64,000 bases of DNA from Fragilaria crotonensis (taxonomy: Eukaryota; Bacillariophyta; Fragilariophyceae; Fragilariales; Fragilariaceae), in contig JAKSYS010000072.1 of assembly GCA_022925895.1 (NCBI GenBank), forward strand, positions 80,401-144,400. Direction: 5' to 3'. Positions 1 through 14,392 of the stretch are shown here, one piece after another; the stretch's first letter is position 1; the number at the start of each line of letters is the position of its first letter. The notes beneath the pieces were generated by a model that was given only the letters and a program-made list of their open reading frames with translations, was not told the DNA's origin and searched no databases. Made by a program: the position numbers and the translations under genes.

Positions 1-1565
1 TTGCCGTCCGAGATCATTTTGTCGAGGACATAAACTGGACATCCCCAAACGTGGACATCCATCAATTTCTTTTGCTCCCAACGAGTCTTTGTGAAGACGT
101 CGTGCGGGGAAAGGCCAGTTCGTGGGTCAGGCATGTGATTCACTAGGAACACAGCATGCTTGACGGCGAGGGGCCAAAGTGTGGGGTCGGCGACATCCGG
201 CCAATGGATGGCCGAATGCAGCATCATGGTTCGTGCGATCGCCATGATGGTTCGGATGTTGCGTTCGGCGATCCCATTGTGATGGTGAGCACCGACGCCG
301 GCGAATCGGATGACTTGTTGGAACTCGGCGAGGTTGCGAGAGAACTCAGCGGACGTGAACGTTTTTGAGTTGTCGGCGAGATACTCTTGCGGCGTCACTC
401 CTGTGTTGCGACACATTCGCTCAAAACTCTCTTTTGCCTTGAGCGTTTCGTGGGAGTTCAAACTTACTTGATGCTCCACAAAAATAAACCCGGAGGCGTG
501 GTCAACGAAGATACAACCACCGGTATACATGTCGTCGAGTTTCGTTTTTCCAGCGGAGGTAAGTAGACGTCCACGAGTGCTGCAAATAAAATGATCGACC
601 GAAATGCGTTGGCCTGGGAGGAGATTGTCTGTTTTAAGAGCGTGCGCTCTATCTTTGACAACAGACGAAGGCGTCGTGCCAGGAATTGGACGTCGATGTT
701 GTTTGCCATATTGGCAGGCGGCGCATTTTGGGAACGAGGTAAGTCGACATGCGGCGGTTTGTAATCGGCGACTTTCTTCCGTTTTGCTGACGACGCCGGA
801 ACGCAGGATGAACTGGACCTTCTTGAAGCCGACGTGACCCAAACGATAGTGCCAACGAAGCAATTCTTTCTCTGCTTCATTGAGGTTGAGGTTTCGTTCG
901 TGAACGGTATTCACAATCGAAACGAGAGCGTCGGCGGCCTTGAAAGGATCGGTTGCGTTGTACGCTTCCGACGTTGGGAGATTGTTCTGCGGGTTGACGT
1001 TTGCAGTGACGGGTCCTCGGTTGACGTCGTTCGGGACGCCACTGAGCGTCAAACGATTCGGTTCGATGGTGATCGTTTCGTCAGGGTAAGTCTGGAGGAG
1101 ACTGGACGTCGAGAGGAGTCGGACTTTGATGTTGGGAACATGAAACGCGGGGACCTTGAGGAGTCGAAGGTTTCCAAGCTGATCGTGGACAGCCCAAGTG
1201 ACTTCGCCTTGGCCTTTAATTTGTAGACCCTTGGCGATGCCTTTTTAGCTGCGTGATCGTTCCGGGCGACGTGACGGGGCCTTCGAAATCGGAGATGTCG
1301 GGCGTGATCGAAATGCTTGCGCCCGAGTCCCAAATGATGGGGCTCGTGTTTGCTTTGGGTCCGAGGGCTTCTCGCATACGAGCGGGAGCCTGGAGAGCCA
1401 TGCGAAGCGGCGTCGAATGGCATGCCAGATGAACGTGCGAGAGGATTTTGTTGGCGGCGGCACGTTGGTGGAACGTGAGCGGAGCGATTGCGAACGGGTC
1501 GGGCGAGTTGGCGGGACGAACGTGGGCGTTTGGAGCACCAGGAAGGACACGAACGCTTGGTTTTG
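1..1565 (-). mobile_element. Ty1/copia retrotransposon pol (protease + integrase), partial
   Basis: Read on the minus strand, this is the front of a copia-type Pol polyprotein. The aspartic protease has a WDSGAS motif near 1316-1335. It is followed by the integrase zinc-binding region (HYRLGH near 860, CAAC near 715) and the integrase core, with acidic residues in SVDHF, YLADNSKTF and GIAERN. Protease before integrase, with no reverse transcriptase yet, is the copia order. The reverse transcriptase/RNase H part lies beyond the left edge. The protease frame differs from Gag by -1. Near 1242 the frame shifts again, by one base, in a run of five A (minus strand), so the Pol frame is interrupted. 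That second shift could be decay, an assembly indel or recoding. The family call is confident; whether this copy is active is unknown. Confidence 0.85.
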
Positions 1566-3674
1566 GTGTATCCCTCTCCCTTTTTGGCCTGTGGTAGGCG
1601 GCAACGGTGCAGGGCGACGAGAATTGCGAAGCGAGTCGGCACGACGTTGGAGACGGAGTGCGCGTTCCTTGAGAGTCGCGAAGTGACGAAAGTCGTCGCG
1701 CTCAGCAACCGTAGGAGGTCGCGAAGCGACATATCCCTGTTGTCGGAGACGGAGGGGGTACGAACGGTGTAGCTTGTTGAGGCGAATGCCTGAATTGAAG
1801 CGTGGCGGAGCGAACGACTTCTTGAGGAGTCGCGAGAAGCGACGACGTTGAAGACGAGTGAGCGGAGGCGAGGAGGGAGCCGTCGAAGCGACGGGAGGTT
1901 GCTTTAGGAGCGTTGAAGGGAAGACCGAGAGAAAGAGAAGGATGACCCAAACGGTAGGAGCGAACGCGAGCGTTGGGTGACGAAGAACAACTTGATGAAG
2001 ATTGTTCGCGACCCAGGCCAAAATGGTGGACCATGGGATCGCGGATGCCAAATAGATAGCAAGGTTAACCAAAATAGGAACCATTGCACAAAGGGCAAAG
2101 GAAAGAACAAGAAGTAGCCATGGGTTCGCACCTCGGATGAGGTTTAAGAGCGAACGAGGAGGAGACGTGACGTTTGGTTTGACTGGGAAGTCAAGCAACC
2201 ATACGGAGGGATCCGGCGCCAACATGCTGAGATTTGCCCGTGGCGATGGTGCCGGAGCGGGAGGACGACGTTCTCCACCGGTGTGAGTGGCGGTCGTGTG
2301 CGTTACGGTCCAACGACGACACTTCTCGCACCAGTTGAAGGTTTTATCCTTCACTTTCTTGGAATTGCTAGTTCCGGGAAGTGGTGGAATTGTGCGCCAG
2401 GATTTATGTTTGTTCGTGCGATCCTGGCGGGACCCAGAGGAGGAGGACGATCCGGACTTACGATTGAGCTCCGGACACTTGTTCGCCCAATGACCGGGCT
2501 TTCCACACTTGTGGCAATTGCCCTTCTTCGTCGTCGTTTCGGTCCCGGATGCCTGGGACTGAATCAACGTAAGTACCTCAGCTCGGGAGATACCTGCGGG
2601 GGCAGTTGCGACATTGCCAAACGTCGCAGACGGAGCTCGGACATCAGGTGCATGACTCGCTGGAGGCCATTCCTTTCTGTCAAATTGCGTACGGTACGCA
2701 TCTTCAGCTTGGCGACAAATATCTTGGAACGTCAATTTCTCGGCGACCATGTGAGCATGGGCGCCTGACTTTTCCTTGTATCCGATGTCGAGGAGCGCCT
2801 GGTCAAGCTTCTGTTTCGTCGAACGGAGAGGAAAGCGGAAGTCTTCGTTTCCGGCTCCGCCGGCCAGAAGAAAGGTCTTGAGCATCGTGAGCGTGAGGTT
2901 GTGGTCGTACTGACCTGCCGTCGTGAGCTCACGTGCGTCCTTGCGATAATCGGCGGCGAGGGCTTCAAGGTTTTCGCCGGCGTACTGGGACGGGTGGCGA
3001 GCCTTGATCGCGGCCTTCAGGTCTTCGAAACGCTCGATCGAAGTCGACTGAATCGTCTTGATGAGCTGGAGCCAGACGACGTGAAACGAGTCGTCGTCGT
3101 CCATTTTCTCTTTGATCTTGCTCATGAGAGCGGGATCGAGAGACGAGAGAAGAAACTTGGTGGCTGCGAGGTCGTTCGACTTGTCATACTTGTCGTAACG
3201 AAGAATCTGCTGGGAGCTGAGAGTCTTTGCTGTCGCGACGGTGTAGCGGGAGTGACTCCTGACAACGTTCGTCATCACGGAGGAGCTTTCAGGATCGGGG
3301 AGATAGGCGATGGTATCCATCCCACAATCGACGAGATGGTCCCAAACAGCGTTCTGAAAGTCGACGAGACTGCTCGCTTGGGTAAAGAGGGTCGTCATGC
3401 CGGTACGACGAAAATTGTACCCCTTTTGTGAGGCGGAGGCATGGACAGGTCGGAGTTGGTTTGGTGACGTGATGTCGTCGGCGGCGCTCGGATCGAGGCC
3501 GACCCAACCAGGAGCTGGCTTACCGCCAGTCCAAGCGGACCAATCATCCCTAGAAAGGGAGACAATGTTGCCCATGATGGGCTTATCGGGCCTATCAGAG
3601 GCGACGATAGGGTCGGAGACAGGTGGCGTCGGGGACGCGGTGACGGGGTCAGAAGTTGGTGTCGGAGACGCCAT
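1245..3674 (-). CDS. Copia-type Gag polyprotein with zinc knuckle and hydrophobic insert
   Basis: An 809-codon frame. Residues 1-350 resemble a capsid region (aromatic and charged, with WAxxx-type helices) as in the UBN2/Retrotran_gag families. A CCHC zinc knuckle (CHKCGKPGHWANKC) spans 387-400. A second Cys/His cluster (WCEKCRRW then two His) sits at 448-464. Two to three strongly hydrophobic stretches follow at about 517-545 and 571-592, which is unusual for a Gag. The last ~150 codons are Arg/Pro/Ser-rich and run out of frame over the protease, so true Gag probably ends by a -1 frameshift between about 1560 and 1690. A run reading CAA AAA GGG in the Gag frame near 1577-1585 is one possible slip site. 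The start at 3674 is the first ATG after the leader. Confidence 0.8.
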   Translation of the reverse strand: MASPTPTSDPVTASPTPPVSDPIVASDRPDKPIMGNIVSLSRDDWSAWTGGKPAPGWVGLDPSAADDITSPNQLRPVHASASQKGYNFRRTGMTTLFTQASSLVDFQNAVWDHLVDCGMDTIAYLPDPESSSVMTNVVRSHSRYTVATAKTLSSQQILRYDKYDKSNDLAATKFLLSSLDPALMSKIKEKMDDDDSFHVVWLQLIKTIQSTSIERFEDLKAAIKARHPSQYAGENLEALAADYRKDARELTTAGQYDHNLTLTMLKTFLLAGGAGNEDFRFPLRSTKQKLDQALLDIGYKEKSGAHAHMVAEKLTFQDICRQAEDAYRTQFDRKEWPPASHAPDVRAPSATFGNVATAPAGISRAEVLTLIQSQASGTETTTKKGNCHKCGKPGHWANKCPELNRKSGSSSSSGSRQDRTNKHKSWRTIPPLPGTSNSKKVKDKTFNWCEKCRRWTVTHTTATHTGGERRPPAPAPSPRANLSMLAPDPSVWLLDFPVKPNVTSPPRSLLNLIRGANPWLLLVLSFALCAMVPILVNLAIYLASAIPWSTILAWVANNLHQVVLRHPTLAFAPTVWVILLFLSVFPSTLLKQPPVASTAPSSPPLTRLQRRRFSRLLKKSFAPPRFNSGIRLNKLHRSYPLRLRQQGYVASRPPTVAERDDFRHFATLKERALRLQRRADSLRNSRRPAPLPPTTGQKGRGIHQNQAFVSFLVLQTPTFVPPTRPTRSQSLRSRSTNVPPPTKSSRTFIWHAIRRRFAWLSRLPLVCEKPSDPKQTRAPSFGTRAQAFRSRPTSPISKAPSRRPERSRS

Positions 3675-4300
3675 CTCGGAGAGTATGGAAAGAAGAGCGA
3701 ACTTGGAAAGGTCTTAAAAGGGGGAAGCACGGCGTACTTGTAGATAAAATGGGTAGCCTAGTTGGTAACTTAGGCGCTCGGAGAGACTTGCTTGTAGGTT
3801 GGAAACCGTAGGATAGAAGATGGTCAACGGAGTTGACTTGGGCTGCAGCGTGGACGATTGCGGAGCAATCGGGAAGTAGATCCTTGGAAAGGATCGACCT
3901 GAGTGTCCTTGGAAAGGAGACGACGAATTCCTTTAGAGAGGAATTGGCTTACCTGGAAGGAAGCGTGAGGGGGTTAGCCTATAGATTGGGCAAAATAACC
4001 ACTTGAGACTATCACCGGAGATGATACTCTAATCGTAGAAAATAGTACGTAGTACCGTAGGAAAATTACTGTAGGAAGGTTTCACACGAAGTACGTTCTG
4101 AGAAATTATAAGCTACAGTAAAATTCGGCACTCGATCGTATGAACGACAAACTCGTCGAACGTGTCAAATGGCATTTGACATTTCGGGTAGTTCGTACGA
4201 AATTAGTTAGAGACCGGACAGTACAGCGTATCATGTTTCACATTTCGATGGATGATCTCACAGTAGCACAGTACAACGATGGAATCGCAGTCTAGTGCAG
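3675..4300 (-). other. Putative 5' LTR/leader of the copia element
   Basis: No gene is visible. The tract lies directly upstream of gag on the element's strand, where the primer-binding site and 5' LTR should be. It is rich in short imperfect repeats around TCCTTGGAAAGGA (3887-3920) and related TTTAGAGAGGAATT sequence. The matching 3' LTR is outside the window, so the LTR boundaries cannot be fixed. A TGTGAAACC start on the minus strand near 4092 is only a candidate. Confidence 0.4.
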
Positions 4301-4387
4301 CGTAGGTTTCAATTCGTGGCTTATGATTTGAGATGGTGGTTGACTGGTTGACAAAAAAAAGAAGAAAGATTTGTTACTGTTTCCACA

Positions 4388-5530
4388 ATGGCAGATTTCG
4401 CTACGATGATCGACAGCCACAACTACGTCGAAGCCAACCTTCCTCCATCGATTGTGGAGAAATTGGAGGCGGGAGCCTTTCGATCTCTCTGCGAACATTT
4501 GAAGGAACGGAGCGATGAAGTTCAGAATCTTGATCTCATGACAGTGTCTGGCTTCTGTCGTAATTGCTTGGCCAAATGGATGGTGATTGAGGCGCGGAAG
4601 CTCTCCAAGGACCAAACTGGCCAAAACCTCGAGGCCTTGGATGCGCTGGGATATGATGAGGCGGCTCAATATGTCTATGGATGCGATTATGATGCGTGGA
4701 AGCAGCGACATGCCAAGAAGGCAACTGATGAACAAATGGCACGATACAACGACAGCAAACCAATTCATTCAGTTTTTGACAAAAATTTGCTCGCAAAAAG
4801 GATCGAGAAGCTCGCTTCACCTACAAGTGATGCAATTGCAACTGGTAGTTCTGCTTCCGACGGCAAGAAAGCTCTACTCTCCAATGTTTGCTGTCAAGAC
4901 GTCGACGAACAAAACCGTGAATCGCAGCCTCCTGCTCCCCCTTCAGAGGTTGTTAAATCCAATCCAAAAGCTCGCACACTTCCTCCTTTTCTTCCTCCAC
5001 AGGCTCCGTCTGGTGGTATCGCTTTCTCAGTCGCCATCCTTACGGTGAGTGACCGCGCATTTAAGAATGAGTATGAGACTGGTGACCAATCTGGTCCGGC
5101 CGTGCAACGAGCCGTACAGCTGTGTACGAATACGTTAAGCACCTCTGAGACTCCAGTGAGTTGCACCATGCAAGAAATAGTAATTATTCCGGACGATATT
5201 GAGGCTATACAAACCAAACTTCGTGAATGTGCCGACGCAGGCGTGGACTTAATCCTCACGACTGGTGGAACCGGATTCTCAGCAAGGGATGTTACACCAG
5301 AGGCGACCGTGGCAGTGGTGGATCGGGAATGCCACGGCCTAATGGCATTTGTGACAACGGAGTGCTCCAAGATTCAGTCACTTGCATCCCTGTCCAGGGG
5401 CACAGCTGGTGTTCTGGGCAAGACAATGATTTGTAACCTTCCTGGCAATCCCAAGGGCGTGGAAGAAATCGTTCCAATCTTGTTGCCGATAGTGATTCAT
5501 GGTATTTACGAAATGCAGGTAGAGAAGTAA
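4388..5530 (+). CDS. DUF1244 - molybdopterin adenylyltransferase (MogA/Cnx1G-like) fusion
   Basis: A 380-residue intact protein. Residues ~1-125 match the DUF1244 family: helical, with GFCRNCLAKW, ALGYDEAAQYVYG and a trailing D(A)WK; these are small domains of unknown role. A Ser/Pro-rich linker (~140-215) leads into a MoaB/MogA-type domain at ~217-375. Landmarks there are ILTVSDRAF, SGP, DLILTTGGTGF, RDVTPEAT and NLPGNPKG. That fold (gephyrin G / Cnx1G) adenylylates molybdopterin before molybdenum insertion into the cofactor. The two halves are in one uninterrupted frame with no visible intron. The start ATG at 4388 is preceded by CACA, and the N-terminus agrees with the DUF1244 family start. 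Catalysis is inferred from the family; what DUF1244 contributes is unknown. Confidence 0.85.
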   Translation: MADFATMIDSHNYVEANLPPSIVEKLEAGAFRSLCEHLKERSDEVQNLDLMTVSGFCRNCLAKWMVIEARKLSKDQTGQNLEALDALGYDEAAQYVYGCDYDAWKQRHAKKATDEQMARYNDSKPIHSVFDKNLLAKRIEKLASPTSDAIATGSSASDGKKALLSNVCCQDVDEQNRESQPPAPPSEVVKSNPKARTLPPFLPPQAPSGGIAFSVAILTVSDRAFKNEYETGDQSGPAVQRAVQLCTNTLSTSETPVSCTMQEIVIIPDDIEAIQTKLRECADAGVDLILTTGGTGFSARDVTPEATVAVVDRECHGLMAFVTTECSKIQSLASLSRGTAGVLGKTMICNLPGNPKGVEEIVPILLPIVIHGIYEMQVEK

Positions 5531-12905: not shown

Positions 12906-14392
12906 TCATTTCTTGTCCGTCATGGTCATAACATCGTTTACATACTTGAGAAGCATCTGATCCAGCTTCGCCTGTGGATCAAACAAAGGATTGACTTGAC
13001 CGCCCTTCAAACCACATACCAAGTGATTCACATCGCGGTGCTCCGCTTCATCCGCTCGGACCGCCTTGATCAAATCCAAGACGGTGCCATCTTCTCCCAA
13101 CTTCCAGTAAGAAATGGCAATCTTGGGTGCACGGTCGTACTTCCACTGCGCCAACTCAGTGCCTTCGGGAGCGTGCTCAATTGCTTCGATAATCTTGGTG
13201 TATGTGCTGCACGCCTCCTCTTCGATATACCCAACGAAGCGATGGCAAAAGGCGGGGCTAATCAAGTACGCGGTGAGGAATGCCAATCCAAAACCGAACT
13301 GACCACCAATGACAGCGGCTCGAAAAAGTCGGGATGGGTCTCTCATACTGACAAATGTGAGGAGACTGCCAGTAGAATGCGAGGTGAGTTAACGTATGTT
13401 ATCGTCCCATACGCGAGATAGGAAAGATTATACAACGATAGAGACTTACTGCATGCGTTCATTGTTGGCTTCCTCCAAGAACATTTGAAGCATGCCGCCA
13501 TCGCGTTCCATGGTTCGCAGACTCCTGAAGTGACGAACAATAGCGGCAACCATTCCAGGTACCGCTGCTACAGTCTCCAAGTAGATTACGCGATTCAAAA
13601 TGTTGGGAATTGTGATGCTGTCGTTCTTCCAACCAGTCGCATTGTCGAAAAAGAATCGTACAACCTTGACTGCGTTATAAGCCAGCTTGTCACGAATACC
13701 GACAGGCTCCAAATGCGTGAGCTTGACATCCAACTCTTCTGGAGTGTAGAACCCATGCGACTTGCCGGTCATCATGTACTCGGCAGCACATCGTCCCACA
13801 CCGAGGGGATGCCTTTCACCATCCTTGAAGTGTTCCGAGTCCTTTTCCTGCTTGTTGGCTGCAACAAAGTCGATAGCTTCGATGAATCGATCAAACGAGA
13901 CAGATTGACCAGCCTTGCCGGCATAGAAGAGCTCTCCAATCTCGTGAATTTCTTCCTCTGAAAACGAGCGATTGTGCTTGTAAAGGAGGCGTTTGAGCTC
14001 CTCCGAATCGATCCTAGGATAGGGATGCCCAGTCAGCAAAGGTTGTCTAAGAAACCCATTTGACCTCACTGCAGGCCAGGACTTCTTCATATATGAACTT
14101 GCCTTCCGTCCGAGTTGGCGTCGACTTCCATCAACTCGGCTTTAATTTGACGTACGATTGCCATATCGAGGGCCTTGAGAGTTCTTTCTACCTTGCCAAC
14201 TTCCTTCACAGGAACATCAAGACCTCCATCAACGCTGACAGTTGAGTGGAATCTCGGAGTATCAGGGAATCGGAGGAATGTAGTCTGCGAGTAGTTGGCG
14301 ACAACAGAAAGCGTCTGCGGAGTGAATGCACGCTTTAGCGCTTGAACAGATGGACCCTTCGTGACTAGGCGCATAGCCGTGGTAGAGATCAT
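12906..14392 (-). CDS. AOX: Alternative oxidase with N-terminal EF-hand, three exons
   Basis: A mitochondrial di-iron ubiquinol oxidase that bypasses complexes III and IV. Exons are 14392-14103, 14013-13450 and 13365-12906; introns of 89 bp (GC-AG) and 84 bp (GT-AG) restore one frame of 437 residues. The N-terminus is basic and hydroxylated, like a mitochondrial presequence. Residues ~85-110 form an EF-hand loop (DANSDGRIDSEE) assembled exactly across intron 1, followed by a degenerate second loop. The oxidase follows with its family motifs: LETVAAVPGM, NERMHLLTF across intron 2, YIEEEA and RADEAEHRDVNH. These supply the Glu/His iron ligands, and all are present. The EF-hand suggests Ca2+ control, which is inference. 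Confidence 0.93.
14014..14102 (-). other. GC-AG intron inside the AOX EF-hand
   Basis: The donor reads AAG/GCAAGT and the acceptor TATCCTAG/G. Splicing here gives AGG ATC GAT, completing the loop DGRIDSEE. The only nearby GT (CAA/GTTCAT) would put exon 2 out of frame. A GC donor with otherwise perfect consensus is a known minor class. Confidence 0.8.

Follow-up and report, generated by a model that had tools for sequence, protein, structure and literature searches.

A mitochondrial-type alternative oxidase with a predicted N-terminal EF-hand pair in the diatom Fragilaria crotonensis

Could an alternative oxidase (AOX) carry its own calcium sensor? The question is raised by a gene in a 64,000-nucleotide stretch of the Fragilaria crotonensis genome (the window; assembly GCA_022925895.1, contig JAKSYS010000072.1, positions 80,401 to 144,400), in which a preliminary description had placed an EF-hand loop and a degenerate partner ahead of a complete AOX. 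The diatom assignment agrees with the plastid rbcL gene of the genome, for which the nearest rubisco chains are 7yk5, 5n9z, 5mz2 and 5oya, all diatom entries. AOX is a membrane protein on the matrix side, controlled by thiols and keto acids in plants and by nucleotides in fungi and protists.

The gene lies on the reverse strand at 14392–12906 of the window, and this span proved exact for the coding sequence, with the ATG at 14392 and the stop codon ending at 12906. Its spliced product has 437 residues from three exons and two introns, and runs from a putative presequence through a predicted EF-hand pair to a complete mitochondrial-type AOX. Exon 1 (14103–14392, −) encodes the putative presequence (residues 1 to ~76), the first EF helix and the first half of the Ca-loop; exon 2 (13450–14013, −) encodes the second half of that loop, a degenerate second EF-hand, a linker and the AOX core as far as the second base of the H285 codon; and exon 3 (12906–13365, −) encodes the remainder of the core, the tail and the stop codon. 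Intron 1 (14014–14102, −; 89 nt) is of the GC-AG type, with donor AG/GCAAGT and acceptor CCTAG, and intron 2 (13366–13449, −; 84 nt) is GT-AG. Both introns split codons at functional sites, intron 1 at R97 inside the Ca-loop and intron 2 at H285, an iron-ligand position. Elsewhere in the window, a single open frame at 4379–5530 (+) combines DUF1244 with a molybdopterin-binding MoCF_biosynth domain, a pairing that is unusual to our knowledge, and a frame of 822 residues at 1245–3713 (−), which contains a CCHC zinc knuckle, possibly encodes a retroelement gag-type protein.

The catalytic core (residues 190–400; 13020–13736, −, with intron 2 within the span) matches the Pfam AOX family (PF01786) at E = 4.3e-81 over profile positions 5–213 of 216, and the window protein is 48% identical to the trypanosomal AOX (PDB 3vv9) over 212 aligned positions. 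Residues E243, E282, H285, E333, E391 and H394, which we take to be the AOX iron ligands (four Glu and two His), are all identical in the trypanosomal enzyme in this alignment, so that the two proteins agree in catalytic core and iron-ligand positions. The trypanosomal PDB chains align only from residue 188 on, however, leaving the EF region unmatched; compared with mitochondrial AOX, the window protein is longer by ~110 residues in the region that separates presequence from core, and these hold the EF-hand pair. Thr (9), Ser (6) and Arg (4) are abundant in residues 1–55, against 2 Lys, 2 Asp and no Glu.

The EF-hand pair occupies residues 77–146 (13866–14164, −, with intron 1 within the span). 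Its first loop, DANSDGRIDSEE (residues 91–102; 13998–14122, −, coded by 14122–14103 joined to 14013–13998), is 12 residues long with ligands at positions 1, 3, 5, 7, 9 and 12, Gly at 6 and a hydrophobic residue at 8, and matches PROSITE PS00018. No continuous frame of the window contains a loop match of this type, so the canonical loop requires the GC-AG splice. A script restricted to GT donors produced, within the ranges set, 15 in-frame models (five versions of intron 1 by three of intron 2); the GT-AG versions of intron 1 were rejected, the first half of the loop being lost in 15/15 of the models found. A routine gene caller might therefore overlook the EF loop. For intron 2 there were three candidate acceptors, a single one of which yields NERMHLLTF as in a paralogue elsewhere in the genome. 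We chose the GC-AG model for intron 1 because this paralogue carries the same loop unspliced and in frame with the oxidase.

That paralogue (contig C679, locus L001) is the second AOX gene in the 62.1 Mb, 881-contig genome that we searched, and has no intron at either of the intron positions of the window gene. Its single open frame of 351 residues (344 translated) contains a putative presequence, the loop DANSDGRLDADE, which also has the features of an EF loop, a degenerate hand, a linker and the first two iron-ligand motifs, and is colinear with the window protein over ~327 of the 344 translated residues, up to the first frame shift. In Pfam this frame matched AOX at 1.3e-54 and EF-hand_7 at 2.1e-4 (22 bits against a cut-off of 30). 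The copy has two single-base frame shifts, the first ~327 residues in, and we are unsure of its integrity. Because C679 has both parts in one open frame, EF-hand and oxidase belong to one product; the worry attached to the preliminary description, that the EF exon might belong to another transcript, is answered in this way, and the fusion is real. Contig C113 (L007, L008) contains the C679 AOX locus once more, its frame broken in many places; to judge from the sequence this would be a noisy duplicate, whether assembly noise or an allele.

An EF-hand that arose as an artefact, from a wrong splice joining unrelated exons or from a chance loop match, might be expected to need a non-standard donor, to vanish from GT-only models and to score below the Pfam EF-hand cut-offs, all of which is so here. 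The same loop nevertheless stands in one frame with AOX in C679, the PS00018 loop pattern arose in 35 of 20,000 shuffles of the window protein, and Pfam EF-hand_5 matched that protein at E = 9.9e-6 (25.3 bits, just short of the cut-off of 25.9). We therefore give an artefact hardly any credence, the C679 open frame largely contradicting both of its forms.

The second loop, AGKAGQSVSFDR (residues 128–139; 13887–13922, −), is degenerate and lacks the usual ligands, although it is largely conserved in C679. EF-hand_7, the Pfam model for the pair, has an alignment that spans the two hands but scores below its cut-off; no match in either gene reached the curated EF-hand cut-offs of Pfam, and an NCBIfam scan returned no significant match (best E 0.044). 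In a PDB search with a profile built from just the two EF segments, the whole-sequence E value was 2e-10 for EFCAB6 (a sum over its repeats), 8e-8 for troponin C and at best 1.7e-5 for calmodulin, with no single stretch passing. The best match with a passing stretch was a troponin C fragment (5.6e-6, profile positions 19–51), the stretch covering loop 1 and the helices that follow it but not the second loop, and the best profile matches depend mainly on the first hand. A structure predicted for the paralogue EF domain (85 residues, mean pLDDT 76) has helices at 4–23, 30–40, 46–60 and 64–82, in the order expected for an EF pair. Foldseek matches to the same model were all non-significant, the best at E = 1.3 and those to calmodulin chains at E 3.6–4.3, and a longer structure model was poor (mean pLDDT 42). 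We read the domain, modelled from two sequences only, as a genuine EF-hand whose partner is degenerate.

The two genes also indicate how the domain has been treated by selection. Between them the EF segment (residues 77–146) is identical at 48 of 70 positions without gaps, compared with 13 of 59 aligned positions (17 gapped) in the presequence (residues 1–76), 24 of 43 in the linker and 159 of 211 in the core, for which the part beyond residue 334 comes from joined frames. Non-synonymous divergence (dN, by NG86 on unbroken frames only) was 0.247 for the EF segment against 0.228 for core residues 190–334; dS was saturated and not computable, and of the comparable fourfold sites 13 of 18 differed within the EF segment and 32 of 46 within the core. 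By this comparison the EF segment evolves at about the same slow pace as the catalytic core. In loop 1 none of the six ligand positions (1, 3, 5, 7, 9 and 12) differs between the genes, changes being confined to loop positions 8, 10 and 11. Since the dN of the EF segment is close to that of the core and the ligand positions are unchanged, the EF domain appears to have been constrained since the genes separated. This conservation refers to two paralogues of one genome, and the concern that the EF exon might not be conserved in related AOXs is answered to that extent, within this genome only.

We found two mitochondrial-type AOX loci in the genome, and both have the EF domain. Three other loci of the AOX family (C295, C79 and C561) we take to be PTOX-like, and the window protein is nearer to mitochondrial AOX (48% identity) than to the PTOX-like frames of C295 (29% over 161 aligned positions) and C79 (24% over 140); C561 had a score equal to that of C295. 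PTOX belongs to the same Pfam family as the window AOX but, unlike the window protein, the C295 and C79 frames contained no EF-hand in the parts scanned, which were 304 residues of C295 and a partial, 202-residue C-terminal frame of C79. A genome search for a donor gene with a 124-residue query returned the AOX loci C701, C679 and C113 and one other match, at E = 1.8, and so found no donor of the EF pair.

Further afield, we kept 80 of 393 confirmed AOX relatives from viral contigs and 80 of 307 from bacterial and archaeal genome contigs. The EF loop pattern was found in none of these 160 loci, at least 80 residues preceded the core in three of them, and the highest identity was 46%. A stop fell within the aligned stretch in 10 of the 160, and in the six inspected the stop was at a point where the alignment runs past a gene end. 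A weak-pattern scan of viral contigs gave 51 stretches and no relatives. In the AOX literature, judged from full-text search listings and passages, there was no report of an AOX with EF-hands, and passages of PMC12699882, PMC7730656, PMC9546453, PMC11314055, PMC8185151, PMC3129679, PMC4587368, PMC11085791 and PMC11663583 place no EF-hand on AOX. Protein databases may already contain EF-hand AOX entries that have gone unremarked.

What might the domain do? In plant AOX, the regulatory cysteine region is located N-terminally. In the window protein the first cysteine is C172, where the paralogue has Asp, and the two genes have no cysteine in common upstream of the core; they differ in this from plant AOX, and a regulatory cysteine of the plant N-terminal type was not found. 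The EF-hand domain occupies the place of the plant cysteine region.

There are precedents for EF-hands on bioenergetic proteins. Passages of PMC4587368 describe plant NDB1 as having an EF-hand plus an EF-hand-like motif and as activated by Ca2+. These plant NDB-type type II NAD(P)H dehydrogenases resemble the window AOX in being respiratory bypass enzymes with one EF-hand and one EF-hand-like motif. They act at the entry of the bypass whereas the window AOX acts at its exit; their EF domain is internal rather than N-terminal, and they face the intermembrane space whereas the window AOX would face the matrix. The F. crotonensis genome has three type II dehydrogenase frames (L177, L178 and L179) with Pyr_redox_2 and NDH2_C domains, and no EF-hand was found in these frames, upstream exons lying outside the view and family matches being lower bounds. 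On the strand opposite L177 there is one loop-pattern match, outside the dehydrogenase frame. In diatoms themselves, KEA3 and DSP proteins have EF-hand pairs, and KEA3 without its EF-hands reportedly acts like a knock-out (PMC11663583). Like the window AOX, these are bioenergetic proteins with an added EF-hand pair; both are located in the plastid, have their EF-hands at the C-terminus and comprise a transporter and a PGR5-like protein rather than oxidases.

Given the position of the domain at the plant cysteine region and these EF-hand precedents, including diatom KEA3 and DSP, we favour, with some confidence, a mitochondrial-type AOX in which the N-terminal EF-hand pair would serve as a Ca2+-dependent regulatory domain. 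The sequence suggests that calcium could switch the AOX respiratory bypass. The protein would be imported into mitochondria and sit at the matrix side of the inner membrane, and because AOX is a matrix-side membrane protein, the EF sensor would face the matrix. There the canonical hand would bind one Ca2+, with the degenerate hand as its structural partner, and binding would change how the N-terminal domain packs against the oxidase dimer or near the quinol channel. By analogy with the EF-hand domain of plant NDB, Ca2+ binding would raise AOX activity, and the direction of the effect is thus probably activation.

Ca2+ gating has to be weighed against a purely structural role, in which the pair carries a permanently bound Ca2+ (or Mg2+), or no ion at all, and helps in folding, in dimer formation or in docking to the membrane, with no part in signalling. 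The usual ligands are missing from the second loop, as might suit such a role, and conservation reveals selection on the segment and not on switching. A survey also reports the mitochondrial Ca2+ uniporter (MCU) to be absent from all diatom species analysed (PMC11085791). This reported absence, together with the matrix-side location of AOX, is one point against a simple scheme in which stress Ca2+ drives AOX. Our own search of the genome for MCU gave no match, but neither did a control query anywhere, so that search is uninformative alone; the genome does have a match to the LETM1 family. Ca2+ might reach the matrix in some other way, or else the hand might have a structural role. Against the structural reading, the unchanged ligand positions of loop 1, despite saturated synonymous sites, argue for retained ion binding, and neither the trypanosomal AOX nor any of the 160 viral-contig and bacterial AOX frames has such a loop. 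We consider a structural role unlikely, if still worth weighing.

An alternative to which we attach considerably less weight is that the EF domain brings AOX to a binding partner, or adjusts its import or turnover in a Ca2+-dependent manner, with no direct change in catalysis. The domain is N-terminal, adjoins the presequence and is joined to the core by the variable linker, and EF-hand pairs often bind helical peptides.

A Ca2+ sensor in this AOX would mirror the EF-hands reported for diatom plastid KEA3 and DSP (PMC11663583), and would pose the problem of Ca2+ entry into the matrix when MCU is, as reported, absent (PMC11085791). More tentatively, in this diatom lineage the Ca2+ control point of the bypass may have moved from its entry, where plants have NDB-type enzymes, to its exit, making AOX a Ca2+-gated matrix valve in mitochondria with no uniporter and with type II dehydrogenases that have no EF-hand. 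AOX would then be regulated in a third way, in addition to cysteine and keto acids and to nucleotides. AOX helps diatoms to discard excess reductant passed from the plastid to the mitochondrion, and a Ca2+ sensor within the oxidase would tie Ca2+ signals directly to this electron overflow.
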